A stretch of 27,432 nt of DNA from a virus, in IMG/VR virus record IMGVR_UViG_3300033064_006098, positions 1-27,432 of that record, one strand, 5' to 3'. Shown piece by piece: positions 1 to 17,613 of this stretch (the stretch's first letter is position 1; every line of letters begins with the position of its first letter). A program made the translations under genes and the position numbers. Under the pieces are notes generated by a model that saw nothing but the letters and a program-made list of their open reading frames with translations, did no database searches and was not told where the DNA came from.

Positions 1-3
1 AAA

Positions 4-399: not shown

Positions 400-458
400 T
401 CAATGGGCATTTCAATTATGTGGTAACAAAAACAGTGCCTTGATGTTATGCTATATGT

Positions 459-800
459 ATGGCAACATACACAACTGCGGCTTTAGTTCGCAAGACAGTG
501 GAAAACATAGATGCGTCCTTACTAGATGCTGACATTGATGCGTTTATAGAAGAAGCCGAATCTATCGTAGATTGTGTTATGGGGATGAGCTTTATAACCT
601 CCTTTGATGCAACTAAACATGGAATTTTGCGTGCTGCAGCTAACAAATGGGCAGCTATCTGTTGTACTGCGTTCAACCCAAGCGATTTTGAATCTATAGG
701 AGAATGGAGTGAAATGGTCAATTTGCTATGGGATCAATGGGGTATGGCATTAGACTACCTTACACTAGATGCTATAGTTCGCTACCTGGAATCCTTATGA
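459..800 (+). CDS. Head-tail connector-like (gp6-type) small virion protein
   Basis: A 113-residue, mostly helical protein. The N-terminus (MATYTTAALVRKTVENIDAS) followed by an acidic DADIDAFIEEAE segment resembles gp6-like head-tail connector/adaptor proteins. These typically begin 'YTT...VR' and have a 'SDADIDxFIxxAE' helix before a helical bundle. The rest (residues 50-110) is amphipathic helix with several Cys and Trp residues. Connector proteins of this type form a ring below the portal and bind the neck. Its stop overlaps the ATG of the next gene (ATGA), so the two are probably translationally coupled. No clear Shine-Dalgarno is visible. The match is by sequence pattern and neighbourhood, not by a search, and lying upstream of terminase is not the usual place for a connector. 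Confidence 0.5.
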   Translation: MATYTTAALVRKTVENIDASLLDADIDAFIEEAESIVDCVMGMSFITSFDATKHGILRAAANKWAAICCTAFNPSDFESIGEWSEMVNLLWDQWGMALDYLTLDAIVRYLESL

Positions 801-1702: not shown

Positions 1703-1989
1703 ACCAATTAAATTTTTTGCCAACAGATGATGCGGAAAAAGAAGATTCAATAGTTTCAATGGTGGAAGAGAAATGCAGAGATTCAGCTCTAAGGTGCGCG
1801 CAAATTCTTATCGAAATGGCAATAGGTGAGCGGGAAACAAACAAGGAGTTGCGTCTTGCTTGTTGTGACGTGTTAAACATTGCATATAGAACAAAATTCA
1901 GGAGCAGTGGAAGACCCAAAACACATCAAGGTAATGCAGATAATGATGATAAAGCGATGTATGCTAATTTGATGAAGACACTGCAATAA
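1699..1989 (+). CDS. Small helical protein, candidate terminase small subunit
   Basis: A 96-residue helical protein overlapping the upstream stop (ATGA) and ending 15 bases before TerL. Residues about 28-75 (helical, with 'LRLACCDVLNIAYRTKFRSSGRPK') resemble the 'RxxAAxxILDRxxGKPxQ' pattern of one group of small-terminase-like proteins. These carry a helix pair, then a basic Gly-Arg-Pro-Lys end. No clear DNA-binding helix-turn-helix is visible at the N-terminus, which is acidic. The position immediately before terL and the size fit a small terminase subunit (genome recognition for packaging). The sequence evidence is weak; it could equally be an unrelated small head protein. Confidence 0.4.
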   Translation: MNQLNFLPTDDAEKEDSIVSMVEEKCRDSALRCAQILIEMAIGERETNKELRLACCDVLNIAYRTKFRSSGRPKTHQGNADNDDKAMYANLMKTLQ

Positions 1990-2004
1990 AAAACATTTCA
2001 AATC

Positions 2005-3480
2005 ATGAAAATTGACTTAATAAAAACACAGCGGGAATTTGCAAAATGTGCAAAGGATATTTTTTACTTTGCCACGCATTACGTCTATACATTTGACCAG
2101 AGCAAAGGGCAGAAGTCACTTGTACCTGAGTGGGAATATGTTGAGATGGTATTAAATGAGATAGCTGAACCAGGTGACTTGTATTTAGAGAAATCAAGAG
2201 ACATGATGGTTTCTTGGACGGTGATGGTATATTTTATTCATTCAATGTTGTTTAATGAGAACTGGGCTGGATTTGCCATTTCAAGAAAACAAGCTGAAGT
2301 GGATGATGGTGGAGATAATAGCACACCTGAATCTTTGTTCGGACGGATTAAGTTTATGTGGTCAAACCTGCCATTCTGGATGAAACCCAACTTCACATTT
2401 TCTCTCCTGAAAATCAAAAATCAAGATACTGATTCGTATTGTACAGGTGAATCAGCCAATCCAAACAGCGGTCGGAATGTTGCATGTACATTCAAATTCT
2501 GTGATGAGTTTGCCTTCTTACCTTTAAATGACCAGGAAACTATTAATCAAGCTATGCGGTATGGTTCATATAAAACGTTACTTTACGTCACAACAGCTAA
2601 AGCTGGCACACTTGCAGAGAGAATAAGCAGAGAGGGAATGGGATTCAAGAAGATACAGGTCCCCTGGTATCTACGTCCTGATAAAGACAAGGCATGGTAC
2701 GAGAAGAAAAGTGCAGGTGCTTCAGGGAATGAAGTGGCTGAGGAATTAGACATTAGTTATGCACCGAAGGGATCTGAAAGAGTGGTCGCCCAATACTGGA
2801 ATGAATCAGAAGATATTCTTGCCCCAGAGGACATTCCACAAATCGCACAGTTTGAACGCGTGGCTTGTGGATTAGATTATGGTTTCATCCGTACAGCAGT
2901 AGAACTGGGGGGGCTTTATCAAGGCGTCTGGTATATTTTCCATGAGATATACGATTTTGAAAAAACACCTGAAGAAGTGACAGCTTTGATTGACCATTTG
3001 AGACGAACCTATGGGGTGGATTTCCCCGTGTTCTGTGGCAAAGACAGACCTGATCTCCTGAAGTCATTGCTATTAGGTGGTTTTGTTGTTACTGGATTCC
3101 AGGAACCCGTTGGGGTTCGCATGGGAACTATTGTTTCTATTTTTAAGACAAAACGAATCAAGGTTATCAGCACTGCAACTGGATTATTAACTGAGATACC
3201 TCGCTATCGCAGGCACAAAGAAGGCGGCATCTTAACAGATGCGCCTCACCGTCATGATGTTGACGAGGCAATGGATGCTATTGGGTATTTGCTCATGGGG
3301 GCTGGTGAACATGCAAATGCGGGTGAATGGGAGAGTGACTGGGATACAGACCCTTACCAGTTGCAAGAGACTTCTGGGAGAGACTGGGCATCTGAAGACT
3401 GGGAGGATGCTAGCCGTTACCGTCATAATAAATTCCGGTGGACTTATGATTATAGCCGGATAAGAGAAAGGTTGACTTAA
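2005..3480 (+). CDS. terL: Terminase large subunit (packaging ATPase-nuclease)
   Basis: A 491-residue protein of usual TerL length. It pumps genomic DNA into the prohead through the portal and cuts it. ATPase domain: a variant Walker A at K63-S-R-D-M-M-V-S70 (classic 'EKSRxMxVSW'), Walker B at F165-C-D167-E168, and the coupling motif around L193-Y-V-T-T. The RNase H-like nuclease domain has candidate metal-binding acids at D291 (GLDYG), D347 (GKDRPD) and D420/D424 in HDVDEAMDAIGY near the C-terminus. All key motifs look intact. The ATG at 2005 follows a 15-base gap with no strong Shine-Dalgarno, so it may be read by coupling. Its TAA shares a base with the ATG of the portal gene (TAATG). Confidence 0.95.
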   Translation: MKIDLIKTQREFAKCAKDIFYFATHYVYTFDQSKGQKSLVPEWEYVEMVLNEIAEPGDLYLEKSRDMMVSWTVMVYFIHSMLFNENWAGFAISRKQAEVDDGGDNSTPESLFGRIKFMWSNLPFWMKPNFTFSLLKIKNQDTDSYCTGESANPNSGRNVACTFKFCDEFAFLPLNDQETINQAMRYGSYKTLLYVTTAKAGTLAERISREGMGFKKIQVPWYLRPDKDKAWYEKKSAGASGNEVAEELDISYAPKGSERVVAQYWNESEDILAPEDIPQIAQFERVACGLDYGFIRTAVELGGLYQGVWYIFHEIYDFEKTPEEVTALIDHLRRTYGVDFPVFCGKDRPDLLKSLLLGGFVVTGFQEPVGVRMGTIVSIFKTKRIKVISTATGLLTEIPRYRRHKEGGILTDAPHRHDVDEAMDAIGYLLMGAGEHANAGEWESDWDTDPYQLQETSGRDWASEDWEDASRYRHNKFRWTYDYSRIRERLT

Positions 3481-4925
3481 TGCCTGAACTCTGGGTACCA
3501 AATAAGTATAGAGACGCATATCAACATCTCCATCGTAAATTAGAAACTGAAAGAGCACAAATGGGGACAGAAGAAACATGGATGCTAGATAATGAGAGTG
3601 AGGATGCAGTAGACCACTATTTATTGTCACAGAAACTAAAGGAATCGAATGTCTATTCATCCAGCACTTCATCATCGCTTTGGACAGAATTAGGCGGGAC
3701 TAAAGAATGGGAGTTATCCGATGGTGAACGACGGACTCTTCAAGTACAGTGCTTGAAGTTGTACCACCTAAATGCGTTTGCCGGCAGTATCATTGATAAG
3801 TATAGTTTCTATGTTATGGGAGATGAAGGACTCCAAGTAAACTGGGCGAATGAGGCAGCGACTGATTGGTGGGATATGTTAGTGAGGCGAAATAAATGGA
3901 TAGGGCTAACAAAGGACATCTGCCAGGTAACTTTTATTACGGGCGAATGTTACGGCATCTCATTCCCGCTCATTGACCCAGAAGCTGAGATGCAAAAGAA
4001 AAAGTTGGATATTATTCAAGTAATCCCGACTGAGATAACAAAAATACACACCAGTAACAATGACCGTAGAGTGATTACAGGTTATGAAAGAGATACAGGG
4101 AGTATATTTCATCCTCAAGATGTAACCCATTTCAAGATACGTGCTGTTGGAGGTGCTCTCCACGGGAGACCAATTCTTGAAAGAGTGCTGCATCCGTTAG
4201 TGATGTATGATGACTGGTTAATTTCCCTTGTACAACTTGCCCGTACACGCTCACGAATCCCGCTTATCAGATACCGAAGTGGGTTAAAAAAATCAAGTAT
4301 TCCTATAAAATCCTTGCCAGAAAGTGGTGCTGTTATTGATGCTCATGAAGGTATTGAACGGTGGGAGTTTCCAACAATGAATATTAGCGCAGGAGATTCT
4401 GCTCAAGTAGGATTAGAAATAAAGCAATACATTGCATCAGGAGTTAATCTGCCGGGATATATGGTATTTGGCGAAGGAGGTTCCAGTGGTGTTATTGAGG
4501 CAACCCCACTAACATTATTTCAAAGCTTGCAAGGGATCTTTCGCGAATATTTCGATGAACTCATCCGCGAGATGATGCCATCAGAAATCAAGCAGGAAAT
4601 ACCTACTCTTACATTCCCGTTAGTCGATTTACGGAATTTCGCTGAGAAATCACGCGCTGTGACTAATGAAGTTTCATCAGGATTAAGGTCAAAACGGTCA
4701 GCGCAACTCATGTTAGGGCTAGATCCTGAAGAGGAAGACCTGTGGATGAGAAAAGAATTAGGACTTGAGGATGAAGACCTCGGCATGCTTCCTGAAGGGA
4801 TGCTAAAGAAAATAGTTGATTCAGTTCTATTTCATGCTCCCGCAATTAGAAAAGGGGTACTAAACAATCCGTTTTTAGAGAGATTAGTCGAGATATTTGA
4901 TCAACGCGGGATTTTAAATAATTAA
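3480..4925 (+). CDS. Portal protein
   Basis: A 481-residue phage portal, the dodecameric DNA gate at the capsid vertex and docking site of the terminase. It shows the usual order. A mixed N-terminal wing with 'LNAFAGSIIDKYSFYVMGDEGL' comes first. The beta-rich centre reads 'IQVIPTEITKI' and 'HFKIRAVGGALHGRPILERV'. A helical stem/crown region carries 'IASGVNLPGYMVFGEGGSSGVIEATPLTL', very typical of this portal group. The C-terminus (residues about 400-481) is helical and acidic. It starts at the TAATG overlap with terL. There is no fused MuF domain, and the gene after the portal that often encodes MuF is absent here; small paralogues and the ligase block follow. Confidence 0.92.
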   Translation: MPELWVPNKYRDAYQHLHRKLETERAQMGTEETWMLDNESEDAVDHYLLSQKLKESNVYSSSTSSSLWTELGGTKEWELSDGERRTLQVQCLKLYHLNAFAGSIIDKYSFYVMGDEGLQVNWANEAATDWWDMLVRRNKWIGLTKDICQVTFITGECYGISFPLIDPEAEMQKKKLDIIQVIPTEITKIHTSNNDRRVITGYERDTGSIFHPQDVTHFKIRAVGGALHGRPILERVLHPLVMYDDWLISLVQLARTRSRIPLIRYRSGLKKSSIPIKSLPESGAVIDAHEGIERWEFPTMNISAGDSAQVGLEIKQYIASGVNLPGYMVFGEGGSSGVIEATPLTLFQSLQGIFREYFDELIREMMPSEIKQEIPTLTFPLVDLRNFAEKSRAVTNEVSSGLRSKRSAQLMLGLDPEEEDLWMRKELGLEDEDLGMLPEGMLKKIVDSVLFHAPAIRKGVLNNPFLERLVEIFDQRGILNN

Positions 4926-4944: not shown

Positions 4945-5295
4945 ATGATTCGTTCAGAAGAATTAAGAGCTAATGCTACCATTATTGCGATAGGTCCTGT
5001 AATTCCTAACCGTGATATAATTGATACTGCTGCTACAATTATGGCGCGTATTATAGGTGATGCTACTCGCATAAAATCCTCATCACCAGTTGTTGAACTT
5101 ACAGGAGAGAATTATCGTATCGTTGTACGAGTAAGTGGGCTATCTGCATCCTATGTTAGTTCATGGTCACCAGATTTGGCTGCTCAAGTTGCACTTGACT
5201 TTGAAGCAGAGGCGATTCAGTGGAATTGTAACATTGCTGCAGATATAACTTTATCTTCATATCAACGCTCTGCTGCAAATTATAGCGAGCGATGA
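4945..5295 (+). CDS. Small tandem-family protein 1 (unknown function)
   Basis: A 116-residue protein with a strong Shine-Dalgarno (TAGGAGGG at 4933-4940) four bases before the ATG. It is preceded by a short gap after the portal. It shares with the next two genes an N-terminal strand followed by a 'GxVIPNxxxxxxxxA' motif (here GPVIPNRDIIDTAA), a helix, and a final strand with alternating hydrophobic residues, so it looks like a distant member of the same family. No signal peptide and no membrane segment. Size and position suggest a minor virion or assembly protein, but no function can be assigned. The stop overlaps an ATG at 5292 that I did not use as the next start. Confidence 0.75.
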   Translation: MIRSEELRANATIIAIGPVIPNRDIIDTAATIMARIIGDATRIKSSSPVVELTGENYRIVVRVSGLSASYVSSWSPDLAAQVALDFEAEAIQWNCNIAADITLSSYQRSAANYSER

Positions 5296-5318
5296 ATTTC
5301 TATTTTGGAAGGATTACA

Positions 5319-5726
5319 ATGTTAAACAAAATTAGAGTCAAAGAGATATTGGAACGGGAGTTTAGAATTGCAATCACAGGGAACGTTATACCAGACCCTG
5401 CTGGAACTGTAGCTAATGATGCAGCAGTTGCTGCCAGGCGTGTTTTCCGGGAGCAAATACTAAAAATGTTTGAGGTTAGTCTTTTGCCATCACGCATAGA
5501 TGCTAATGAAAGGAGAGGAACATTTGGTTTAATCATGACAGCAACAGCATTTCATGACTCTCCCCAAAGCATAAGAAGAGGCATCGCTGCTGAATTAGCA
5601 CAGAATATTGCCGAGGATATAAAATTAGGTTCCACAGATCCTTTTAGTAAGATGATTACAAGGGCAATAATAAAGGTAGATATTAACTTCACTTTTGAAG
5701 AAGAAGTTAGTGCCAAAGTACCATAG
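5319..5726 (+). CDS. Small tandem-family protein 2 (unknown function)
   Basis: A 135-residue protein. I place the start at the ATG at 5319 (MLNKIRVKEIL) because GGAAGG at 5307-5312 is well placed before it. The alternative ATG at 5292 overlaps the previous gene and has no such site. It is clearly paralogous to the following gene. Shared landmarks in the same order are 'F-x-I', 'GNVIPDPAG' versus 'GRVIPNPGE', 'GTFGL' versus 'GTFAL', 'F-x-D-(S/T)-P-x-S-(I/V)', 'I-A-A-(E/D)', and a closing 'IIKVDINFTFEEE' versus 'FIKITIKFIFDEH'. The predicted alpha/beta fold has no recognisable catalytic motif. The function is unknown. Confidence 0.75.
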   Translation: MLNKIRVKEILEREFRIAITGNVIPDPAGTVANDAAVAARRVFREQILKMFEVSLLPSRIDANERRGTFGLIMTATAFHDSPQSIRRGIAAELAQNIAEDIKLGSTDPFSKMITRAIIKVDINFTFEEEVSAKVP

Positions 5727-5749: not shown

Positions 5750-6154
5750 ATGAAAGCTAAAGTCATGGAAAGATTTGAGATAGATTTTAATATTGGAATA
5801 GCTGGGAGAGTCATACCCAATCCTGGTGAAAAACCAGCGCAACTTGCAACGCAAAGCATGAAAATGGTTTTTCGCACTATAGTAGAGGAAACCTTCGCAG
5901 GAATCACGCTTCCTACTTATGCGCCCAGATATGATGAAAGTGAAGGAACATTTGCCTTGACCTTCCGTCCTCCTGTGTTTGAAGATACACCTGAATCTGT
6001 TAAGCAAGAAATTGCCGCCGATATGATGCGCAAGATTGTCGAAGCTGTAAGGTCGGGAGCTATAGACCCCAATACTTTGTTAATCACTACTGGGTTTATA
6101 AAGATAACAATTAAATTCATTTTCGATGAACATGAAGAAGTTACCATCAGATAA
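5750..6154 (+). CDS. Small tandem-family protein 3 (unknown function)
   Basis: A 134-residue paralogue of the preceding gene, with conserved 'GRVIPNPGE' near residue 24, 'EGTFAL' near residue 67 and a C-terminal hydrophobic strand 'FIKITIKFIF'. The Shine-Dalgarno AAGGGAG lies at 5736-5742, seven bases from the ATG. The stop is two bases from the start of the giant ligase gene, whose own ribosome site is weak, so this gene probably drives its translation by coupling. Whether the product works with the ligase proteins or with the portal is unknown. Confidence 0.78.
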   Translation: MKAKVMERFEIDFNIGIAGRVIPNPGEKPAQLATQSMKMVFRTIVEETFAGITLPTYAPRYDESEGTFALTFRPPVFEDTPESVKQEIAADMMRKIVEAVRSGAIDPNTLLITTGFIKITIKFIFDEHEEVTIR

Positions 6155-6156
6155 GA

Positions 6157-9100
6157 ATGAATATCACAACAAATTACAATACTAAATTAGAATGGTTCAC
6201 GCAATCGCTCCAGCTTGATAGTACAAGTGTGGGAACATATCTATTTACAGAAAACATCTCCCTGAATGTAAAACCAGCAATTCTTCAAATCTCAGGTGAA
6301 ATGGAATTAGTTTTACAATGCAGAATTCAAGGCAGTACTTCATTGCAAGAAGCAATGGATGTCGCATCCCAAACTCTACAGAAGCTAAATGTGAAACCCA
6401 TCACTGATAATGATAGTGTTGCCTATGATGGATTCTTGTGTTCAACTATAGCTCAGTATTACTTCTTCTGTTCACCTGATTTACCCGATGGGGCAAATAC
6501 ATCTTTTGCTATGTCAGCTTTCCAGAATCTGCCTGTAATTGGTGAACTTCCCGAATTGCTACCATTAAGTCCCTCTGGACATATCGAAGGTGATGAGATA
6601 CAGGTTAACGAATTCTTATCTCATATTAGGCCATTCATCATAAAAAAGGATTGGATTACTCTTGTAGGCGGGTTAGCAGCTAATGAACATACAAGAAATG
6701 ATATTGATATTGTAGTAGCAGAGATGTCACCTGAACAATTGGAGAAAACAGCACGGTTCAGGTTTCTAAGAGGAATGCCTGACTATCTTGCACACAGAAT
6801 ATCATTCTTGCCGCAGAATAATATTAAGGGACCGATAACGTCTTATTATCCATTGGGTGATTTAGTATTCCTACCAAACGAGATATTCAGGAGGGTGGCA
6901 ATGTCACATACATCAGATATCCAGACAACATCACTGCCCTTGTTTACCGTTAATGGCAAACAAGCAACACGACTGACCGGCGCCACAGGCTTACTGGGAA
7001 AAGATGCTACGATTAATGAGATAAAAGAGACACCAGAGGACTACCTTGAGAAATCAGTGAAAATCACAGATACGAAAGCCCTGAATGATGATCACAGGCT
7101 ACTTCATTTATGGGCTGTACAAAAAGACAGAAGACCCGATGGTTGGACTGACGACATTATTAAGGATGCGCATAATAAAGTGGTGGCAAGATTGAAAGAA
7201 TTGTTTGCTAAAGATGGCAAGAAATACAATCATAAATCGCCGATGAAATTTACAAATGAATCGCTTGATATCACATCTCAAATGGACGAGTTATCCAACT
7301 GGGTATCAAATACGCTAAAAGGCAAATGTACGCAAGAAGATGACGGCATTTTTGTGTTCCCATCATGGGAAAATGCAAAGTATATCTTTATGGCTTTCCC
7401 TGTGATTCTATATAACATTGGTGATGCCTATTCATCGGTTCTGGCTTGCGAGGGCTGGATACTCTCAAAAGATTACCAGCTATTAGCTGATGAGTTAGCA
7501 TTACTTTCAGCTAATGAAACCCTGGATGCACTTCAAGTTCACCCTTTTTGCGATTCTGATTCTGGGGGATTGGAACACTTCCTAATTCCCTGCCAAAATG
7601 GTCATCGTTTCTACTGCTCTCCTGATTTTCCAGCGGGTTGGAATGCCAATCATATTTTGCCACCTTCAGGTCAACTTAATAAAGTAATTGAACAATTAAG
7701 GGCAGCGCCTAAGAATATTGAGCAACAAGCCAAACAAACACAACGTGAAGATAGAATCTCTATCTCGCGGATGTTCTATCCTATGAAACCAGTTCGCGGG
7801 GCTTCCATGGGCGAACCTCAAACGATAGAGAACTTTATGCGCTTGATTGAAAAAGAAGCTTACCCTTGCCTGACTTCAAAAAAGTTTGACGGGAACACTA
7901 TGATTATATTCAAACTCGCAGATGAAGTCAGAATTTATTCCGACGATGGCAGAAATAATACGAGTAAGTTACCATCTTTGGTAAGTGAGATTGTGAAATA
8001 TTCTGTGACCTCTTTTATTGCACTCGCTGAACTTGAACTATGGGTCGATGGAGTACATTACCCGCGCGAATCCGTCAGGCAAGCGATGTCATCACGTCCT
8101 CAATATGAACCGCATCTATCAGCCAATATTTTTGAGTTAGTTTATGTCAATGGACGTGACTTACATAAATACAATGCTTTCAAACGTCATTCAGTTGCAA
8201 AGCAGGTTTTTGCGCATTTGCCCCCCGCTGAAGTTGCAGCAGGAGAGAATAGAGTGGCATTGGCGACACAGTACCCTGTGCGCAATCGGAGAGAATTAAG
8301 GGAGCAAATTGACAAGTTGTCTAATTTATCAGGGTCAGAAGGAATTGTTATGAAAAAGGGTGATTACTCACTTGATGGGCGTGCTACATCTAAACAGGCA
8401 ATTAAATATCACAAATCGGCTGTTAGCAATGTTATGATAATGAATTCTACACTTACAAAAAATGGTACCTATGTATACGAATTAGGATTGTTAGCAAGTG
8501 GTCCTTCAGGTTCTCCGTCTCAACCACAGCAAGAAATAGAAGGCATTGGTTTTGTCATAACAGTTGGCAAAACTTTTGCAACAAAACGGAAAGTTGATAT
8601 AGGACAAGTAGTGAAACTCAGTTTTGAGACTCTTAACTTCATTACACGAAATGAAGAAAGTTACAAGCTGACTTTATGGGTACCTATGCTTCTAAACCGA
8701 ACTAATGAGAAGCTAAACAGTACAGGTGATGCAATCGTGATAGCACGCAATGCTGGTGTTCTACAAGAAAAGTGGGTAGTTGGTCAGGAAATCTATTATG
8801 ATAAAGCTAAAGTGCCAAAAGTTAAGACAAAATCGGAAGCCAATAAGATTACTATAAAGCAAATCAGTGAAGATGTTGAAACATTTGCAGCAAGTTTCAT
8901 TCAACGCGCAGATGACGGGAAATGGCTCAAGAAGATTCAAGAGAAACTCGGATTAGAAAAATCATCTCTTGGTGGATGTGACGGGCTTCATCTTACGATT
9001 GCGTTGTATAAACAGGTGAGTAGTTTAGATGTAATTGAAGATGTTACAAAGAAATTGGAAAACATCAAGCCGTTTGATTTTGTTGTTGATAAGATAGAAT

Positions 9101-10197
9101 TATTTGGGGAGGAACAGAATACTCTTGTTTTATCAGGTACAGTTCCGCCTGCTATTACGAAGGTAGTTGAGAAACTACGAAGGGAAGATGATACGACATG
9201 GGATTTCGAGCCTCATATCACTATCGGCAATATGGAAGGATCAGAGTTCGGATTTGATGAGATAGTTGACATGATAAAGCCTGAATTACCTCGCCGCATT
9301 TCGATGTCGCAACCTGTGGTAATGTGTGAATCTCCTACGCAAGAACAAATTGGCAAAGACCCGTATCTAGAATATCCTGAACATGGCAAACAACTTAAAG
9401 TGATGCGACACTTGCACGGGCGAGGAAAATCTGTTTCGGACAGAACTCCGATTGTCATTAGAAAAAATGAAAATATCGAAGTTATTCCAATCAAAGACTT
9501 ATTTTCTTACTCGGAGAGGGAAAAAGAACAGATTATGGAGAAAGAAGTAGAAGGGATAGAAACCTGGACGAAATCAGGATGGAGCAAAATCAGCTATGCC
9601 ATGCGACACAAACAAGATGCCCCAATCAGGAGAGTTTTGACTTGTGAAGGATTGATAGATGTTACCGACGACCATTCACTTTTTCGTAATAACACTTTAT
9701 TTAATGAAGGTGCCCCTGTTAAAACATCTGACTTGAATATTGGAGATGATATAGAACTAATTGAACTTCCTAAGCTAGAAGGAGAAACTGATGTCGATAA
9801 GAATTTGGCCTGGCTATACGGTTTTTATTTAGCAGAAGGAAATACTCATGGGCGTCGTTCTGGCATTGAAATCACCTCCACTGAATGGAAGATAATTCCA
9901 AAGTGTGTCTTTTCCTGGAATAAGGAAAGTCAAGAAGCTTTCTTAAAAGGATTCTTCGATGGAGATGGCATCGATATCAATTATGAAAAGGGGAGAATTG
10001 AATGGGCAAGTGCATCTCAGATTGTGGCGCAAGGAATACTTTTGCTTACTCAACGAGTTTTCCCATTTCCTTTCTTCAGAATCAAATATCAGGATTCTGT
10101 TATCAGGATAAGTTTAGCAAATGAGGAAAGAGAAGAAAGGAATGTGATAAAAATCGTTGGAAACCGCGAGGATGCACTCAAGATATGGAATAGATAA
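6157..10197 (+). CDS. Giant end-processing protein, N-terminal part: NTase-like, ATP-DNA ligase, 2H phosphoesterase, then N-intein
   Basis: A 1346-residue protein. Order of parts: a beta-rich N-terminus (1-150). A nucleotidyltransferase-like segment with G171-G172 and D182-x-D184 ('VGGLA...NDIDIVV'). A 'DDHRLLHLWA...GWTDDIIKDAH' His-rich helical stretch near 310-345. An unassigned region to about 530. Then an ATP-dependent DNA ligase core with motif I K576-F-D-G, motif III E625-L-E627-L, motif IV E728-G-I-V-M-K and motif V I749-K-Y-H-K753. An OB-like domain follows (about 760-870). A 2H/LigT-type phosphoesterase has H945-x-T947 and H1020-x-T1022. An 'HLHGRGK' half-motif ends at K1091. From S1092 the sequence is an intein that runs out of frame at the stop. 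The ligase joins nicks and 2H enzymes open or trim cyclic phosphates; the combination suggests end repair. No signal peptide. The motifs look active, but domain limits are approximate. Confidence 0.88.
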   Translation: MNITTNYNTKLEWFTQSLQLDSTSVGTYLFTENISLNVKPAILQISGEMELVLQCRIQGSTSLQEAMDVASQTLQKLNVKPITDNDSVAYDGFLCSTIAQYYFFCSPDLPDGANTSFAMSAFQNLPVIGELPELLPLSPSGHIEGDEIQVNEFLSHIRPFIIKKDWITLVGGLAANEHTRNDIDIVVAEMSPEQLEKTARFRFLRGMPDYLAHRISFLPQNNIKGPITSYYPLGDLVFLPNEIFRRVAMSHTSDIQTTSLPLFTVNGKQATRLTGATGLLGKDATINEIKETPEDYLEKSVKITDTKALNDDHRLLHLWAVQKDRRPDGWTDDIIKDAHNKVVARLKELFAKDGKKYNHKSPMKFTNESLDITSQMDELSNWVSNTLKGKCTQEDDGIFVFPSWENAKYIFMAFPVILYNIGDAYSSVLACEGWILSKDYQLLADELALLSANETLDALQVHPFCDSDSGGLEHFLIPCQNGHRFYCSPDFPAGWNANHILPPSGQLNKVIEQLRAAPKNIEQQAKQTQREDRISISRMFYPMKPVRGASMGEPQTIENFMRLIEKEAYPCLTSKKFDGNTMIIFKLADEVRIYSDDGRNNTSKLPSLVSEIVKYSVTSFIALAELELWVDGVHYPRESVRQAMSSRPQYEPHLSANIFELVYVNGRDLHKYNAFKRHSVAKQVFAHLPPAEVAAGENRVALATQYPVRNRRELREQIDKLSNLSGSEGIVMKKGDYSLDGRATSKQAIKYHKSAVSNVMIMNSTLTKNGTYVYELGLLASGPSGSPSQPQQEIEGIGFVITVGKTFATKRKVDIGQVVKLSFETLNFITRNEESYKLTLWVPMLLNRTNEKLNSTGDAIVIARNAGVLQEKWVVGQEIYYDKAKVPKVKTKSEANKITIKQISEDVETFAASFIQRADDGKWLKKIQEKLGLEKSSLGGCDGLHLTIALYKQVSSLDVIEDVTKKLENIKPFDFVVDKIELFGEEQNTLVLSGTVPPAITKVVEKLRREDDTTWDFEPHITIGNMEGSEFGFDEIVDMIKPELPRRISMSQPVVMCESPTQEQIGKDPYLEYPEHGKQLKVMRHLHGRGKSVSDRTPIVIRKNENIEVIPIKDLFSYSEREKEQIMEKEVEGIETWTKSGWSKISYAMRHKQDAPIRRVLTCEGLIDVTDDHSLFRNNTLFNEGAPVKTSDLNIGDDIELIELPKLEGETDVDKNLAWLYGFYLAEGNTHGRRSGIEITSTEWKIIPKCVFSWNKESQEAFLKGFFDGDGIDINYEKGRIEWASASQIVAQGILLLTQRVFPFPFFRIKYQDSVIRISLANEEREERNVIKIVGNREDALKIWNR

Positions 10198-10348
10198 TCC
10201 CAACTTCAAGACGGGAGAATATGCCTCAAAGTTTCTTCCTTATTCTCTAAAAGATGTCTGGCACTATTCTAAAAACAGGTGGGTCTATGATATCGAAACT
10301 GAGAATCATGATTTTTTAGCAGGAGTTGGTAAGATAAGAGCTCATAAT
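9430..10348 (+). mobile_element. LAGLIDADG-type intein, frame-disrupted (split or decayed)
   Basis: An intein sits inside a phosphoesterase motif. It starts at S1092 of the upstream gene (SVSDRTPIVIR, block A of the Ser-type Pol-intein class). Block B is T1170-D-D-H1173. The homing-endonuclease motifs are 'LYGFYLAEG' (1220-1228) and 'FLKGFFDGDG' (1262-1271). Blocks F/G are 'VYDIETENHDFLAG' and 'IRAHN' followed by Ser, which end at N64 of the next gene. Removing it joins 'HGRGK' to 'SVHFDVR'. The span is 919 bases, one more than a multiple of three. Frame 1 ends at 10197, and the C-intein frame is open only from about 10151. A one-base insertion, a real split intein (C-intein 64 residues from TTG 10157 or 59 from ATG 10172) or a sequencing error would each explain this. 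The two endonuclease motifs are only 33 residues apart, far below the usual distance of about 100, so the nuclease is probably dead. Confidence 0.85.
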
Positions 10349-12226
10349 TCTGTGCATTTTGATGTCAGGCGACAGTTTGATAACGACTGGCTTGTCGGCT
10401 GGACTGAGAATGTCCAAATAGAGGGTGCTGTTGATTTTGACGTGGATACATTAGAAGAAGCGCACAAGGTGTTTGACGGATATTCAGTAGATGACGGCAA
10501 TGACTATCTTAAGCCTCTCGGTTCACCGTCAAAGTTAGTAGCTGAAGTTCTGGAGAAACAAGTCCATGACGAGAAAGCAAAAGAACCTATTGAGTGGATG
10601 TCTTACGTTGGTGTTAAACCACCAGGTGAGGTCGGTTCTACGAAGGAACACGAAGGCACTTTACTCATTATAGATGAAGGCACGACTGAGTGGGGGGCAT
10701 CAAAACCTGCGTATCATGAATACTTTGACAGCGATGGCAAGATATTCAACGGACGCTATATCGTTCGACTTCTCAGGGATGCTTGGAATCTTACGCCTGA
10801 AAAGATGGTCTGGATGGCGTGGTACGCAGATGACCCTACACCTTACGTTCTATCTAAACGTGCAGTGAAACTCGGTTGGATGCCGCCAGATGGGCAATCA
10901 GCACTGCCGAAAATAATCAGAGATGTTATTCCAAATGAATACTATTACTGGAAGGAAACTGGTGATAAAGCAAAACGGATAAGAGATAAACTTGTCAATG
11001 ATAATATTGTGAGCCAAGGTTTCAGGTTTAATCAAAAAGGCGAAGTGATTCCAAATAAGATTAGTGTAGTAGAGGGGGAAGTGAATCTCTATCGTGTAGC
11101 TAAACGTGTATCAGTATCTAGTAAGGTACAATATGCTCTTATGATTCAAGCTAATGGGAAATTCTATAGTTACTTATTTGAGCAAGACCCACGAAAAAAT
11201 ACGCCATTAGAATTTCAATTTGGCGACGCTGGCGAAATAGACATATTTTCTCATGACGGGGTCGTCCCAATCGGATTTGCTGCAAACCGTTCAGATGAGG
11301 ATTTTACACAGGAAATCTTAGAGAAGGGATATGTGTCAACAATAGTAAATCTTCCTTCCTTGCAATCTTTCAATTTTAATTCTCCCGGCGATGACGACAA
11401 TTGGCAAAGAAGTTTCAGTTTGTTGCAAGCTGAAACGGGTGATGGTGCTATGATAATTGATGTAGCGGGTGACAAATACAAACCCATGAAGCCATCTGTG
11501 CGATATGAGTTAGAAGAACCATCTCTTAAAAGTATGCAGGAGATATGGAATCAGTGGGCCAAGGAACACGCGAATCCAATGATAATGCAAGAGAAAATTA
11601 ACGGGATACGTCTGATAGCTACTTTTAAAAATGGCGATTTACAGAAACTTGAAAATGATGATGGTGATGATGTTTTAGCTGATTTTTTACAAGGAATCCA
11701 AGTCGAAAGAATTGACACAATAAAAAATGGTGATTATGTTCTTGACTTCGAAATGATGTCTGATGGTAGACTTTACTTACTCACAGTTATGCAGTTTAAT
11801 GGGGTTGATGTCAGGATGGCTCATGAGATTGATAGAATGAAATTGGTAAGACAACTGTTAAAGGGGAGCTCCTTGAAACTGCCTTCCACTGTCCTTATTA
11901 AGAATGCGCAGGAATTTTATAAAACTTTCGAGTTGTTTTTTGATAAGATTATTGAGGGATTAATGCTAAAAGATGGTACTTCTGTTTATGACAGGATGGA
12001 AACTAATCAGTGGGCTAAAATATTAAAGGTCTCTTTTGCGGAAGCTATGGTTGAAGAGAAACAAGAACTATCTGATGGACGCTTCGTTTATGTCATTAAG
12101 GTAAACGACACCCTTCTGCAGACTCAAGCAACTGGAATTAATGTTAATATTGGTGAGAAATTGCAAGTCACAATCCCAGCTGACAGCTCACCAAGGGTGG
12201 TGAAAGCAATTGAATTGTCTGTGTAA
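10157..12226 (+). CDS. Giant end-processing protein, C-terminal part: C-intein, LigD phosphoesterase-like, ligase-like domain 2
   Basis: A 689-residue frame starting at TTG 10157 (or ATG 10172) and overlapping the upstream gene by 41 bases. Residues 1-64 are the C-intein, ending H63-N64. From S65 the extein reads S-V-H67-F-D69-V-R71, matching the H-x-D-x-R core of LigD-type 3'-phosphoesterase domains ('HYDLR') and completed by the upstream 'HLHGRGK'. 'GTLLIIDEGTTEWG' and 'HEYFDSDGKIFNGRY' further on fit the rest of that fold. After an unassigned beta-rich region, a second ligase-type core has motif I K480-I-N482-G-I-R (Asp replaced by Asn), D530-F-E532, E600-G-L-M-L-K605 and W619-A-K-I-L-K624, then an OB-like end. 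The spliced or frame-corrected protein would be about 1716 residues. Activity of ligase domain 2 is doubtful. The stop overlaps the next gene by 17 bases. Confidence 0.85.
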   Translation: METARMHSRYGIDNPNFKTGEYASKFLPYSLKDVWHYSKNRWVYDIETENHDFLAGVGKIRAHNSVHFDVRRQFDNDWLVGWTENVQIEGAVDFDVDTLEEAHKVFDGYSVDDGNDYLKPLGSPSKLVAEVLEKQVHDEKAKEPIEWMSYVGVKPPGEVGSTKEHEGTLLIIDEGTTEWGASKPAYHEYFDSDGKIFNGRYIVRLLRDAWNLTPEKMVWMAWYADDPTPYVLSKRAVKLGWMPPDGQSALPKIIRDVIPNEYYYWKETGDKAKRIRDKLVNDNIVSQGFRFNQKGEVIPNKISVVEGEVNLYRVAKRVSVSSKVQYALMIQANGKFYSYLFEQDPRKNTPLEFQFGDAGEIDIFSHDGVVPIGFAANRSDEDFTQEILEKGYVSTIVNLPSLQSFNFNSPGDDDNWQRSFSLLQAETGDGAMIIDVAGDKYKPMKPSVRYELEEPSLKSMQEIWNQWAKEHANPMIMQEKINGIRLIATFKNGDLQKLENDDGDDVLADFLQGIQVERIDTIKNGDYVLDFEMMSDGRLYLLTVMQFNGVDVRMAHEIDRMKLVRQLLKGSSLKLPSTVLIKNAQEFYKTFELFFDKIIEGLMLKDGTSVYDRMETNQWAKILKVSFAEAMVEEKQELSDGRFVYVIKVNDTLLQTQATGINVNIGEKLQVTIPADSSPRVVKAIELSV

Positions 12227-15200
12227 ATCACGCCTTCCAGAGGACTTACGCAAACAGGTAGAAGAATCAGGAACTTATACATGGGAGATACTCGAAACCC
12301 TTGATGTGCTTGCCCGCACCTCAACTGATTGTGAGATGCTCGCAGGGGTTCTTGAGGCGGCGATGGATGCAATCTCACAAGCAATCTATACATCCGAAGC
12401 TGATTTCCTAATGGGTGTGATAGGACATGCAGGTGATTCAATTTCCAAAAACTGCGCAGGGGAAGAGAAAACAATAACAGGTTCTATTTTCCCATCCAGC
12501 GATGCCGGCTCGGTCTCTTTTAAACTAAACCTTGATGTTGCCCCGCCGACGGAGGACGTAGTTCGCGCAACAATCGCACTCCTTGTTGCTGGAAAAGCGG
12601 GGATTGAGTGGTATGATTATGGAGAAACATTCTGGGCATGGGAAGTCATCAGTGGTAAAAGCAAATTAGGCACCAAATATACGATGGGCACTTATGTGCT
12701 CTCTCATTATCAAATCACGCTTTTTACTATTGCTGTCTCAGCCTTGGTTGCAGGACTTACATTACTGGGGCAAGCTATCTGGGAAGGACGCGCCATAGAT
12801 GAACTAAAGAAAGATAACCCACCATTCCAATTCCCTGACGATAATGATGTCTCTACTTTCGCAGGATTAACATTCGATTGGGAAGTTACAGAAAATCTTA
12901 ATTGGCATTTTGATTCTATTGAGGCTGCGGGAGCAACTATTTTGTTTGATGGCACTCACAATGGGAAAATTACCATCTGGGACGATACAACAATCATAGC
13001 TAAATTCAGAGAAGGGAATTATTTCCTGGTGACAAATAGCAGTCCACCAGAAGCTGGAAGTGTTCAACCTGCCGGGCAAACCCCGTACCCACCTGGTACT
13101 AGTGTTAAAGTGTCTGCAAATGCAAATGAAGGATGGCAATTTCAAAAGTGGAGTATAGACGCAACGGGTATAGTATCTCCTGTGGAAGTTTTAATGGATG
13201 ATGATAAAACTGTCACTGCTGTTTTTCAAAAGGTCTGGATTTTAAAAACAGCACCTTTGCCACCCGAAGGAGGCGTTACATCTCCAACGGAAATAGAAGT
13301 GCCAGATGGAACTCCTGTAGAAATCGTAGCAAGGGCTAATGAAGGATTTCTCTTCTCTCTCTGGAAAGATGCTGAAACTGGTGAAATTATGGCGCCTGCG
13401 GAAACAGCCACTATCTCAGTTGATGACGATATTTCTTTATTAGCTGTTTTTGATAAAGCATACACGCTTACAACCTCCATAAACATTCCGGAAAGTGGCA
13501 TAGTGTGGCCAGCTGGTGAAACTAGGCACAAAGAGGGTGCGGAAGTTGAAATCAAAGCAGACCCAGCACCTGGATTCGACTTTGTAGAATGGTCTGGTGA
13601 TGCCTCTGGTAGGAGCACTACTATCGTAATTACGATGGACAGCAACAAGGGGGTTATAGCTGACTTCATCAAACAACTCAAATTAACCACGGCGGTTTCG
13701 CCACCGGAGATGGGAGCAATATCGCCTACTGGTGAAACATTCTGGTATGAAGATGAGGTTGCCACAATTACTACAGACCCAGTTAAACAACACGACTTTA
13801 ACTACTTTTCTATTGTGCCAGAAGGATTACCAGAAACCATGTCTGAGGAAAACCCTTTGCTCTGGCAGATGGTATCTGATGTAGTTGTAACAGCTGTTTT
13901 GCATCCACCTGTGACATTGATTACATCAACAGGAGAAGGGGGAGATATTTCACCGTTGGGCGAAACCACTTACCGATATGAGGAAATTGCTATTATTACA
14001 GCATCTCCTGACACTGGTTACTATTTTGATATTTGGACGGGTGACGCTTCAGGTATGACTAACCCGCTTAGTTTACCTATGGATGGAGATAAAACTGTTG
14101 CAGCAACATTTCAGGAGTGGATAATATTGACAACAGAAGCTGGGAAAGGTGGTAATGTTTCGCTTGAGAGAGTAACAAAATGGAGACGAGATGATGAAGT
14201 CAATGTTGTAGCTACTCCAGAGGCAGACTTTCTTTTTGATATCTGGTCTGGTGATGTTGAGAATACTGAAGCCTCCATCAAATTCATTATTGCTGAAGAT
14301 ATGACAATTAAGGCTAACTTCGTTCCAAAAAGAACTCTGGTGATTGCTGCAACCAAAGGTGGCAGTACATCACCGTCAGGAACCATGGAATTGAAAGATA
14401 GTTCTACTATTCAAGTCAAAGCTATACCCTTAATAGGCTTCTCTTTTCTCAAATGGTCTGGTGACATTGAAAGCACTGCAAATCCAGTTGAAATAATTAT
14501 GGATGATGATAAAAACATCACTGCTGAATTCCTTGATAAATACAAACTGACTACCACGGCTATTCCAGCAGAGGGCGGAACAGTTTCACCTTCAGGGGAG
14601 ACTGATTATTTGCAAGGAGAGTCAGTCCGCATTTCAGCCACATCTATATCGGATTTTGAATTTGCAGGTTGGTCAGGTGATGTTTATGGGTCTGAAACTC
14701 CAATTACAGTTGTTATGGATAGTGATAAAACGGTAACTGCAAATTTTAGCAAGATGGTAACTATCACCACATCGGTAGAAGGAAATGGCACAATTTCAGT
14801 ACCACAAGAGTTCAAGGTGGCGGCCGGAACCGACCTTGTAATCCACGCCACTCCCGATAGTGGTTGGTGGTTAACCAATTGGATAGTTGGTGTTGTTGAT
14901 ACAGGGGCTATTAATCCCCTGCAATATTATATTACAGAGGACATCCATATTACGGCTTTTTTTAAGCAATATTTTGAATTGACTACCGATGTATCACCTG
15001 ATGAAGAGAAACCTGTTGGATCTGTAATTCCCTCTGGTACTACTCTATGGTCTAAGGACACTGGAGTCTGGTGCGCCGCATCAGGAACGCCCGGAACTCA
15101 AGTGGAACCTGCTTTTGTTTTTACCTACTGGTCTGGAGATATTGAAGGAGATGTTACTTGGAATCCGGGGTTGGTAGCAATGGATGATAATAAAGAGATC

Positions 15201-15443
15201 ACCGCCCACTTTTTGCGACAGTATAGATTAACTATTAAGGTGAATGGGAAGGGCAGAACTGAACCGGCAGAGTTTGCCTTCTATTTTCCTGATGAAACGG
15301 CTTATGCATATGCCATTTCTGCTGATGTACCCGGTGGTATGTTCTTATATTGGACAGGTGATTTTACTGGATTGTCAAACCCTGCTGTTGTGGCTATGAC
15401 TAGAAATAAAACTATCATGGCGCATTTTTCAACACCAGGTTAA
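12210..15443 (+). CDS. Large repeat protein: C-x40-C segment, one membrane-like helix, about 11 InlB-like B-repeats
   Basis: A 1077-residue protein. The start is TTG 12210, the only start-like codon near the frame's beginning, with AGGGTGG at 12193-12199 upstream. Residues 6-82 (KSRL...ESGT...C41-x40-C82) match a segment of the 15481-17613 protein. Residues 169-190 form one hydrophobic helix (ITLFTIAVSALVAGLTLLGQ). From residue 271 to the end come about 11 copies of a 65-80-residue unit of the divergent InlB B-repeat (Flg_new_2) type. The consensus is 'LTTxxxPxxGxxSPxGET', then 'FxxWSGD', then 'MDxDKTVTAxF'. Such repeats are small beta-grasp-like domains of surface or adhesive proteins. There is no signal peptide, which suits a virion protein better than an exported one. 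The preceding gene ends in an OB fold, so this may be the detached tail of that protein. Confidence 0.85.
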   Translation: MNCLCKSRLPEDLRKQVEESGTYTWEILETLDVLARTSTDCEMLAGVLEAAMDAISQAIYTSEADFLMGVIGHAGDSISKNCAGEEKTITGSIFPSSDAGSVSFKLNLDVAPPTEDVVRATIALLVAGKAGIEWYDYGETFWAWEVISGKSKLGTKYTMGTYVLSHYQITLFTIAVSALVAGLTLLGQAIWEGRAIDELKKDNPPFQFPDDNDVSTFAGLTFDWEVTENLNWHFDSIEAAGATILFDGTHNGKITIWDDTTIIAKFREGNYFLVTNSSPPEAGSVQPAGQTPYPPGTSVKVSANANEGWQFQKWSIDATGIVSPVEVLMDDDKTVTAVFQKVWILKTAPLPPEGGVTSPTEIEVPDGTPVEIVARANEGFLFSLWKDAETGEIMAPAETATISVDDDISLLAVFDKAYTLTTSINIPESGIVWPAGETRHKEGAEVEIKADPAPGFDFVEWSGDASGRSTTIVITMDSNKGVIADFIKQLKLTTAVSPPEMGAISPTGETFWYEDEVATITTDPVKQHDFNYFSIVPEGLPETMSEENPLLWQMVSDVVVTAVLHPPVTLITSTGEGGDISPLGETTYRYEEIAIITASPDTGYYFDIWTGDASGMTNPLSLPMDGDKTVAATFQEWIILTTEAGKGGNVSLERVTKWRRDDEVNVVATPEADFLFDIWSGDVENTEASIKFIIAEDMTIKANFVPKRTLVIAATKGGSTSPSGTMELKDSSTIQVKAIPLIGFSFLKWSGDIESTANPVEIIMDDDKNITAEFLDKYKLTTTAIPAEGGTVSPSGETDYLQGESVRISATSISDFEFAGWSGDVYGSETPITVVMDSDKTVTANFSKMVTITTSVEGNGTISVPQEFKVAAGTDLVIHATPDSGWWLTNWIVGVVDTGAINPLQYYITEDIHITAFFKQYFELTTDVSPDEEKPVGSVIPSGTTLWSKDTGVWCAASGTPGTQVEPAFVFTYWSGDIEGDVTWNPGLVAMDDNKEITAHFLRQYRLTIKVNGKGRTEPAEFAFYFPDETAYAYAISADVPGGMFLYWTGDFTGLSNPAVVAMTRNKTIMAHFSTPG
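13020..15437 (+). repeat. About 11 tandem InlB-like B-repeat units (protein-level)
   Basis: Units of about 195-245 bases (65-80 residues) run head to tail inside the 12210-15443 gene. They begin near residues 271, 343, 418 and 490, then continue to the C-terminus. Units 1, 3, 5, 7 and 8 are closest to the consensus (WSGD or WTGD, then a 'MD-x-D-K-x-V-T-A' end). Units 2, 4, 9 and 10 are diverged, and unit 10 carries an insertion. DNA identity between units is low, so the array is old and not freshly amplified. Confidence 0.85.
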
Positions 15444-15480: not shown

Positions 15481-17613
15481 ATGCCTAAAAGATTATCATA
15501 TAGATTACTATATCGCTCATGGAAAGGGCAGCAAGTTATCCGTGGTGCTCGTCGGGGAAATTGCTGGATAATCTCATACCCTAATCAGGATGGAAGGTAC
15601 ACAGAAATCCATTGTGCTAAATCTCCATTAATGATGGATAATGTAGCAGCGGTAATTATTCTATCAAATGGCAACTTATTCGACTTCGAAGGCGAATTAT
15701 CCGCGGATCATCCAGCGAATCCGCTCAAGAAAATACCGATGGAGCAGAAAATCCTTGATAGCGGTTATATAATCGTTGAGAATGGGAAAGAGCCAACTCT
15801 CCTTGACATTAGAGGTGACATTCTAAATGGTATTTTTGAAGTGGTGGCGGATGAGAGTGATATAGTCTATATCAAGCGTGAATTCACCAACGCCTTACGG
15901 CTTATGGAGGTAACCAGTCCTTTACGGTTTACTGCTGGCGAATCTCAACCATTACCTATTCATATCCCGCAGAAAACTTCACTGCGGTTTGAGATAAATA
16001 TTGATGACCCAGATTATACGGAAGCGTTAGCATGGATTACAGCACGTGAGAATGACATATTTGTAGAACCAAAACTGGTGGGGCTTCGCACAATAGCATC
16101 TAAAGACGCTATTTATCTGGAAGGCAGCGAGGTCAATCAGATTAAGCGATTTCCTGAGTTAGCAGCAGAATTATCAACACTTGATGAGAAGTCATCAGGT
16201 ATCGTATTAGATGGTGAACTGGTGCAGGCTGCCTTGCACGTGTTTTCTGTTCTCAAGACATCAGAGCAAGATTTACGTGGTGAATCAGAGGAAGTTCGAC
16301 TTGAAGCTCTTGAGCAACTGGGGATTGATAAAAACGAATGGATACAGAAAATCCCGTATGCGAGATTAAAGAAGGGTGCTAGCAAAGATGACTGGGGAAA
16401 AGCCCTCCAAGTAGCGTTCGACGCCGAAAACTCTGAAGGCGCCATGCTCAAGCACGTTTTGTCTACTACCAACCAGAAATGGAATAGTGACTGGGCAAAA
16501 GTAAAACTTGTGCGCTATTATGTTGGGAGAGTTTTAGGGAAGACGCAAGTAGATGATCCTAACAGAGATACATGGGTTTACGAGCTTGGTTTCAAAAACA
16601 AGCACGGCAAGCTAGTATCATTAGGCACATCAATGGCAACAGGAATTGAACTAAAGAAAGGTGATTATGCGGTTGTCGCACTACCTGCGAGTGGTGTCTG
16701 GGAAACACCTATTGTTAAAGGAAAATCAGATAGAAAAACAGTTGATGATTTTGTGCCTAAGAGCAGATTTGGAGAGTCAGGAACTCCACTTTGGGTTGAA
16801 TGCGAAGAAATGGAGGCAGAGCTGGCCGCTGGCGTTAACTGCGGTAGACTTCGAGAAGTTGTAGCTCGTTCATGGGAAATTTATTCAACAGACTGGGTCT
16901 ACCCAGGCGAACGAGATTATGCCTACTCAATATGGAATGAAGCCTCTGGTGACGAAGCACGCTGCACACCATCCATTTCGCGTGAAACTGATACAATGGA
17001 TTTTGGCGACGTTCAGGTTGATGAAACAGGAATCATTAGTACGTGGATTTCAAATGATGCAGATACAGAGGGTGACGACCTTGATATTGAGATTGTAATA
17101 GTTGGAAGTACTACTTTATTTTCAGTCTCAGAAAATAGTTTCACAGTTCAACCAGGGGAAACACGAAATTTTGATTTCTATGCAACATCGGAGAGCCCGG
17201 GAGACCGAAGTGCAGCTTTTGAGGTAACAACTAATGACATTCATAATCCGATTCTCTGGTATTCAGTTTCAGCAATATTTACAGGCGGTGAACCTAAATT
17301 AACCTATGATTGGAGCTCTTATGATTTTGGTTCGGTGTCTGTCTACGATTACGGTGAAATGGATCAAGTCATCACGAATGACGGCACAGGGGATTTGGAA
17401 TTATCCAATTTTTATGTAGAAACTGATGGTGCTATTTTTCGTATCATTGGAGATGACAGCGATGTGACAGTAGCACCAGGTGATAGTTATAGTTTAACAG
17501 TAGGTTTCTTCCCCCCGGAGATCGGTTTTTGGGGCGGCACCCTGTGGATGAACTCAAATGACCCCGTCTGGGCACAAATTGGTTTTAGATTGTATGGTGG
17601 AGGCGAAGAATAA
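15481..17613 (+). CDS. Ligase-like domain 3 fused to C-x40-C segment and two ASH/Ig-like domains
   Basis: A 710-residue protein. Residues 1-165 are beta-rich and unassigned. A ligase-type core follows with motif I K198-L-V200-G-L-R203 (the Asp of KxDG is Val), motif III D244-G-E246-L, motif IV E319-G-A-M-L-K324 and motif V W338-A-K-V-K342. An OB-like domain with 'GRVLG' and 'ELKKGDYAVVALP' comes next. The 'KSRFGESGT' linker leads to C454-x40-C495. Two tandem Ig-like domains of the ASH/choice-of-anchor-D type complete it: about 500-600 with 'MDFGDVQVDETG', and 608-708 with 'YDFGSVSVYDYG', each ending 'TTND' or 'NSND'. KxVG probably cannot be adenylated normally, so a binding or structural role is likely. 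Only 37 bases separate it from the repeat protein upstream, and a protease-scaffold gene follows. Confidence 0.85.
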   Translation: MPKRLSYRLLYRSWKGQQVIRGARRGNCWIISYPNQDGRYTEIHCAKSPLMMDNVAAVIILSNGNLFDFEGELSADHPANPLKKIPMEQKILDSGYIIVENGKEPTLLDIRGDILNGIFEVVADESDIVYIKREFTNALRLMEVTSPLRFTAGESQPLPIHIPQKTSLRFEINIDDPDYTEALAWITARENDIFVEPKLVGLRTIASKDAIYLEGSEVNQIKRFPELAAELSTLDEKSSGIVLDGELVQAALHVFSVLKTSEQDLRGESEEVRLEALEQLGIDKNEWIQKIPYARLKKGASKDDWGKALQVAFDAENSEGAMLKHVLSTTNQKWNSDWAKVKLVRYYVGRVLGKTQVDDPNRDTWVYELGFKNKHGKLVSLGTSMATGIELKKGDYAVVALPASGVWETPIVKGKSDRKTVDDFVPKSRFGESGTPLWVECEEMEAELAAGVNCGRLREVVARSWEIYSTDWVYPGERDYAYSIWNEASGDEARCTPSISRETDTMDFGDVQVDETGIISTWISNDADTEGDDLDIEIVIVGSTTLFSVSENSFTVQPGETRNFDFYATSESPGDRSAAFEVTTNDIHNPILWYSVSAIFTGGEPKLTYDWSSYDFGSVSVYDYGEMDQVITNDGTGDLELSNFYVETDGAIFRIIGDDSDVTVAPGDSYSLTVGFFPPEIGFWGGTLWMNSNDPVWAQIGFRLYGGGEE

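Follow-up and report, generated by a model that had tools for sequence, protein, structure and literature searches.

The window analysed here, 27,432 bases long, comes from IMG/VR (virus record IMGVR_UViG_3300033064_006098). Within its head-morphogenesis gene block lie two overlapping open reading frames (ORFs) which together encode the parts of a predicted multi-domain DNA-end repair chain; these ORFs and their domains are on the plus strand, as are ORF4, TerL, the MCP, and the portal and protease/scaffold candidates described below. ORF1 (6157–10197, 1346 aa) encodes a helical domain, a nucleotidyltransferase (NTase), a DNA ligase core with an OB-like domain, a 2H phosphoesterase, the start of a LigD-type 3′-phosphoesterase (PE), and the N-terminal part of an intein carrying a LAGLIDADG endonuclease. 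ORF2 (10157–12226, 689 aa) encodes the C-terminal part of the intein, the remaining PE, and a second ligase-like core. A PHROGs search returned no family for ORF1.

ORF1 residues 542–854 (7780–8718) match an ATP-dependent DNA ligase core, with Lys576 in motif I, followed by the OB-like domain (Pfam DNA_ligase_A_M, E 1.3e-11). A 16-sequence profile of this region matched the archaeal DNA ligase 4eq5 in the PDB with E 1.6e-26, and the structure model matched DNA ligases over both the core and the OB domain (Foldseek, E 6e-19; VIA, Z 25.8). Lys576, Asp578, Gly579, Glu625 (motif III), Glu728-Gly729 (motif IV), and Lys750 (motif V) are invariant in 16 aligned relatives; motif IIIa of the window ligase is FE, not FD. 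An RNA ligase or capping enzyme was considered as the main identity of this core and dropped, as DNA ligases win by both profile and fold, and chance motif matches were dropped because the motifs are common to the relatives.

The PE is interrupted by the intein (9430–10348; LAGLIDADG_3 endonuclease, Pfam E 2.8e-6), which lies between Lys1091 of ORF1 and Ser65 of ORF2 and whose splicing blocks could be read directly. The N-terminal PE strand, ending in HLHGRGK1091 (9358–9429), was placed by alignment to HIHGRGKSVHGD of ANMV-1, a virus of methanotrophic archaea, and by the PE alignment (A3). The remainder of the domain (10349–10957) carries the HxDxR motif (His67, Asp69, and Arg71 of ORF2), such that the interruption falls at HGRGK|SVHFDVR, with HGRGK1091 on one side and S65-V-H67-F-D69-V-R71 on the other. 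Before the intein ORF1 reads ...DPYLEYPEHGKQLKVMRHLHGRGK, and the intein ends in ORF2 as VYDIETENHDFLAGVGKIRAHN, followed by SVHFDVRRQF. Support for the extein junction K|S is good, since ANMV-1 has the equivalent sequence joined at this point, without an intein; none of the relatives was seen to carry an intein at the PE site of the window.

A model of ORF2 residues 63–295 (233 residues, without the ORF1-encoded strand; mean pLDDT 78) was matched by Foldseek first to the archaeal LigD PEs 3p43 (E 3.3e-4) and 3p4h, the only two entries with a probability of 1.00. VIA-align matched six LigD PE entries with Z scores of 8.0–11.4 (3p43, 11.4 over 113 residues; 3p4h, 10.9; LigD PEs, 8.0–9.5), the next row scoring 2.2. 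A 19-sequence PE profile matched 3p43 with E 1.4e-4, 12 of the 19 family members matched Pfam LigD_N, and His67, Asp69, and Arg71 are invariant in all 19. By alignment, the Mn-binding triad of LigD (His42, His48, and Asp50) and Arg52 are kept in the PE family after splicing, His1087 of ORF1 being the likely equivalent of LigD His42.

The frames of ORF1 and ORF2 differ by one base. Their overlap (10157–10197) lies inside the intein, as does the position of the frameshift, between about 10148 and 10197. Accordingly, no single frame of the record encodes the 1716-aa chain, which the preliminary description of this DNA had presented as one protein, and a single intact frame was dropped as a candidate; because the frames are one base apart inside the intein, such a protein presupposes a frameshift, trans-splicing, or a mistake in the assembly. 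The break may stem from an assembly error, from a broken intein, or from an intein that is naturally split. Each extein is open from end to end (1091 and 625 codons), with the break confined to the intein. ORF2 has an ATG inside its overlap with ORF1, and the intein may thus be naturally split, with translation of the two ORFs coupled.

Toward the N terminus, ORF1 residues 158–238 (6628–6870) form a putative Pol-beta-type minimal NTase, with Gly171-Gly172, Asp182, and Asp184 (own profile, E 2e-26; alignment A4). The GG...DxD motif is conserved at a level of at least 90% in 16–18 sequences, and the best PDB matches of the profile are TdT, Pol beta, and Pol mu, at a weak E of 0.04. A small His-rich helical domain (residues 303–373; 7063–7275) is common to nine or more relatives, 3 of 10 members matching Pfam Pyr_excise (T4 endonuclease V-like); it had no match in the PDB. 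The 2H phosphoesterase (residues 896–1050; 8842–9306) is assigned from Pfam scores (PF13563, 29.5 bits against a cut-off of 27, E 8.7e-7; LigT_PEase, 26.5 against 23.3) and from the motifs H945-L-T and H1020-I-T, which are 75 residues apart. The structure model here is poor, with residues 875–1091 mostly below a pLDDT of 50 in a part of the alignment that has no relatives. Searches of the PDB with phmmer gave noise only.

The second ligase-like core in ORF2 (11483–12169) has K-I-N-G as motif I and matches Pfam DNA_ligase_A_M (E 6.3e-8) and our own profile (E 7e-55); judged from its sequence, it is divergent. ORF4 (15481–17613, 710 aa), which belongs to the same module and lies farther downstream in the operon, outside the interval covered by the preliminary description, has a PE-like segment (15499–15858), a third ligase-like core with K-L-V-G as motif I (15967–16677), and ASH/HYDIN Ig-like repeats. 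Between the repair chain and ORF4, and overlapping the end of ORF2, a 1077-aa protein (12210–15443) has nine InlB-like (Flg_new_2) repeats.

The motif positions given in the preliminary description (GG171..D182xD184, K576FDG with motifs III–V, His945, His1020, and HxDxR across the intein) were thus all confirmed, and its domain identities proved largely right by Pfam and by profiles. The structure prediction that it had suggested as a check matched the PE region to the LigD-PE fold (3p43) and modeled the ligase core as a DNA ligase. Its division of the PE by an intein, with HxDxR formed after splicing, is borne out by the joined ANMV-1 sequence, and the connection that it drew with LigD-type healing and sealing of ends is supported. 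Its second ligase core held in part: the Pfam match stands, and the motif I Asp is lost, with KING in place of KxDG.

Protein-pattern searches of IMG/VR with the window protein, the ANMV-1 protein, and a two-sequence alignment found no relatives. Relatives were recovered with three short DNA patterns, the first of which, encoding PGEVGxTK, matched 27 contigs, most of them with relatives. The resulting PE family comprises 73 viral loci, which fall into 60 clusters at 90% identity. In 36 of the loci a single ORF encodes both ligase and PE, and in 28 a single ORF encodes NTase, ligase, and PE together. The order NTase-ligase-PE is commonest, NTase-PE-ligase and ligase-NTase-PE are also present, and some relatives have ligase and PE as two consecutive or nearby genes (e.g. 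L003, L006, L011, L013, and L028). A 75-kb record (L216) has, shortly after TerL- and portal-like genes, one open 1632-aa ORF with an NTase (442–519), a ligase (552–868), 2H histidines (His1096/His1164), a PE (1210–1461), and a second PE-like copy. Because this ORF is uninterrupted, the order NTase-ligase-2H-PE exists as a single polypeptide; a search of metagenomic viruses for the window's order, also suggested in the preliminary description, thereby found one. Among the ligase/PE ORFs of the recovered loci, only one besides that of the window has a 2H motif pair. The preliminary description knew of no described phage protein with the full order; the architecture is not unique, given the 28 loci with NTase, ligase, and PE and the L216 chain.

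Seven sufficiently diverged pairs gave dN/dS values of 0.07–0.25, and the chain is therefore maintained by purifying selection. Inteins elsewhere in the family, within the NTase of L003 (in the stretch 7355–11362) and in the PE of L015 at GAQK|C (in the stretch 1–3933), fit essential conserved sites. The TerL ORFs of L004 and L021, at about 850 aa versus 475, are possibly intein-bearing. Extra domains in relatives include metallo-beta-lactamase, Dam methylase, and Pyr_excise-like domains. A Dam-type adenine methylase occurs in the same polypeptide in L005 (3763–8958), L162 (1–4881), L188 (5877–11189), and L022 (968–4606), which suggests DNA modification as a putative further cargo activity.

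Some members of the family, at least, are viruses of archaea. Both ANMV-1 and the L004 virus have a gene for a TATA-binding protein, and matches among metagenome-assembled genomes fell in Archaeoglobales, Thermoplasmata, a Deltaproteobacterium, and a Dehalococcoides bin. The member L075 comes from a bin labelled Dehalococcoides (112.9-kb contig), and L083 from one labelled Archaeoglobales (24.1-kb contig). The PE protein of the Archaeoglobales-bin contig is identical to that of the IMG/VR locus L013, whose contig is also 24.1 kb. These may be viral contigs binned with their hosts, or misbinned. Pattern matches in genome contigs were mostly due to chance, 4 of 102 encoding relatives. PE relatives were present in 6 of 393 genomes of the L083 phylum, and the majority of those that were examined carry chains of the same viral type; among these 393 genomes we saw no evidence of a cellular origin of the chain. 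A plasmid search returned ordinary ligases only. A search of 22 virus records for a Ku gene found none, although these records are fragments and do not prove its absence at the virus level, and Pfam scans of the window and its relatives contained no primase-type POL domain.

Relatives with flanking sequence usually show the order terminase large subunit (TerL), portal, chain gene, head protease, and major capsid protein (MCP). In 17 loci (14 clusters) our own profile detected an XkdF capsid protease at the C terminus of the chain itself, a fusion confirmed by Pfam in L014, L019, L020, L173, L180, and L188 and in 8 of 24 further members (A7). In the window, TerL (2005–3480; PHROG 5989, E 3.8e-20) is followed by a candidate portal protein (3480–4925), which is placed by size and by a position as in relatives, the window protein itself having no database matches. 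Three small genes separate it from ORF1. Two of them (5292–5726 and 5750–6154) are adjacent paralogs, with 36% identity over 129 aa and no PHROGs family; BLAST of the neighboring gene (4945–5295) against the two found no match. Beyond ORF4 lie a candidate head protease/scaffold (17663–19615) and the MCP (20090–21118; Pfam PF25209, E 7.7e-24; PHROG 4523). Residues 32–182 of the former resemble (E 5e-6) an 823-aa ORF of L005 that is encoded immediately after the L005 ligase gene and is also matched by our own MCP profile. In ANMV-1 the gene after the ligase (L002:5868–9368) encodes a giant Cys-rich repeat protein, whose C-terminal motif TCDYC...LPPYHEHCRC is like that of the Mu gpF/SPP1 gp7 minor head proteins.

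This context is more telling for the role of the chain than the list of its domains. The preliminary description missed it, along with the widespread viral family, the ANMV-1 relative, the frequent capsid protease fusion, and the helical domain at residues 303–373. We consider that there is an even chance that ORF1 and ORF2 represent one intein-split copy of a viral multi-domain DNA-end repair family, which forms part of the head-morphogenesis module in tailed viruses, including some of archaea, and acts as a head-loaded polyprotein for end healing and sealing. Head loading and the reaction itself are what we infer: since the fused head protease acts inside the procapsid, the chain would enter the head, and the 17 XkdF fusions hint indirectly that it may be packaged in the virion and injected. 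As protease-linked or protease-neighboring cargo it would reach the inside of the head, and be delivered with, or act on, the linear genome. The PE, and perhaps also the 2H domain, would trim or dephosphorylate 3′ ends, the NTase may add nucleotides or else nucleotidylate some target, and the ligase would seal nicks or join ends, for instance in repair or circularization of incoming DNA without Ku. The simplest use of a DNA ligase with 3′-end healing in a head would be to repair, protect, or join genome ends at delivery. In the window record, the chain would require splicing plus a frame change, or trans-splicing, of ORF1 and ORF2. A more specific proposal, which we consider clearly less likely than not, is a Ku-independent, virion-delivered end-joining system, in which a LigD-like polyprotein (NTase, ligase, and PE; optionally 2H, metallo-beta-lactamase, Dam, and glycosylase-like domains) is loaded into the head via the capsid protease fusion and repairs or circularizes the genome on entry, the window copy being assembled from two products by a split intein.

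Several observations weigh against these readings. In the window the reading frame of the chain is broken and the chain is not fused to its protease. Motif I of the window ligase lacks the usual Arg, reading KFDGNT, with Thr, where KxDGxR is expected (His occupies this position in ANMV-1 and L025), and the additional cores lack the motif I Asp, with KING in ORF2 and KLVG in ORF4 in place of KxDG. The NTase class, drawn from motifs and weak profile scores, is weakly assigned. His84 and Tyr88, which are essential in the P. aeruginosa LigD PE (PMC8656161), correspond in the alignment to 3p43 to Glu (Gln in others) and to an invariant Trp; the PE is thus LigD-like in its fold and metal site and altered in its phosphate site, and its activity is uncertain because these two catalytic residues are replaced. 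With the frame broken, the Asp of the second core and the Arg of the ligase lost, and His84/Tyr88 replaced, the earlier suggestion that the protein could heal and seal almost any DNA end was overstated. The late-gene position, moreover, also fits a packaging role without injection.

Such a role appears rather unlikely. The chain would then be a repair or packaging factor for replicated DNA in the infected cell, where it would seal nicks and clean up ends ahead of packaging through terminase and portal or in the course of it, and it would not be delivered to the next host. This role would agree with a chain encoded directly after TerL and the portal, with a ligase fold of the nick-sealing type, and with the DNA-processing domains (Dam and metallo-beta-lactamase) of relatives, but the XkdF fusion points inside the head, not to the packaging motor. 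We regard as quite improbable an anti-defense or RNA-repair polyprotein whose domains reverse nuclease damage to tRNA or other RNA or destroy nucleotide signals, as proposed for the 2H domains of polyvalent proteins. The window does have a 2H domain, and such domains specialize in 2′,3′-cyclic and 2′-5′ linkages (PMC5512222); 3′ ribonucleotides are also among the substrates of the LigD PE (PMC8656161), and some relatives have weak PF09414 RNA_ligase scores. However, the ligase matches DNA ligases with an OB domain in profile and fold, not RNA ligases, only one further 2H motif pair occurs among the ligase/PE ORFs of the recovered loci, and no 5′-kinase was found in the family members scanned.

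It is likewise quite improbable that the window copy is a decaying pseudogene, which would be losing its function here regardless of the role of the family in other viruses. The frameshift inside the intein and the eroded ligase motifs (KFDGNT, KING, and KLVG) would be expected of decay, but both exteins are open throughout, the His/Asp/Arg of the PE and the Lys/Glu/Lys of the ligase are kept, and the break affects the intein only.

If the head-loaded end-repair reading is correct, the family links the repair of DNA ends with the assembly of virus heads. In the literature searched, no capsid protease is described that has a DNA repair polyprotein for its N-terminal part, and the family, widespread (60 clusters) and under selection, has been hidden beneath names such as "ATP-dependent DNA ligase." With this family it becomes a testable question how, without Ku, the viruses that infect uncultured anaerobic archaea handle broken or open genome ends; the family may also offer a natural head-loading signal for enzymes.

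The chain can be compared with four known systems. The ANMV-1 protein (AJP62006.1, KP703175), deposited as "ATP-dependent DNA ligase," has the NTase-ligase-PE order of the window, with 35–38% identity in the PE (BLAST) and 26–33% in the NTase and ligase; its gene directly follows the portal gene, and its HGRGKSVH site is uninterrupted. It differs in being an 866-aa protein in one frame, without the 2H domain or the intein, and in having a second PE-like copy in place of the second ligase core. The ANMV-1 paper does not discuss the PE, NTase, or head context, and its main text is without the ligase enzyme (PMC4372165), which is also not mentioned in the main text of the ANME-1 virome paper (PMC9894754).

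Bacterial LigD and the archaeal ligase/PE enzymes of nonhomologous end joining likewise combine an ATP-dependent DNA ligase and a LigD-fold 3′-PE in one protein, and their metal-binding His/His/Asp and Arg52 are kept in the viral family. In contrast to LigD, the viral family has a Pol-beta-type NTase instead of a primase-type POL domain, no Ku was found, its ligase is closer to archaeal/eukaryotic replicative ligases, the PE residues His84/Tyr88 are replaced by Glu/Gln and Trp, and its genes lie in a virus head operon. The Ku proteins of mycobacteriophages Omega and Corndog provide a precedent for virus-encoded end joining, thought to circularize the incoming genome; their packaging in the capsid was proposed, and Ku was not detected in particles (PMC3706429, PMC3898472). 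Omega/Corndog Ku recruits the LigD of the host, whereas the viruses of the present family carry the ligase and PE themselves.

Phage polyvalent proteins (Iyer et al., 2017; PMC5512222) are, like the chain, very large multi-domain proteins with disparate activities, encoded among the late or virion genes of portal-terminase viruses, and some carry 2H and NTase domains. The main text of that study makes no mention of DNA ligase, LigD PE, or XkdF fusions, and it describes the 2H domains of polyvalent proteins as never associated with RNA ligases and such proteins as scarce in archaea (PMC5512222). The chain family is best read as a new branch of the polyvalent-protein theme, which it would extend to archaeal viruses.

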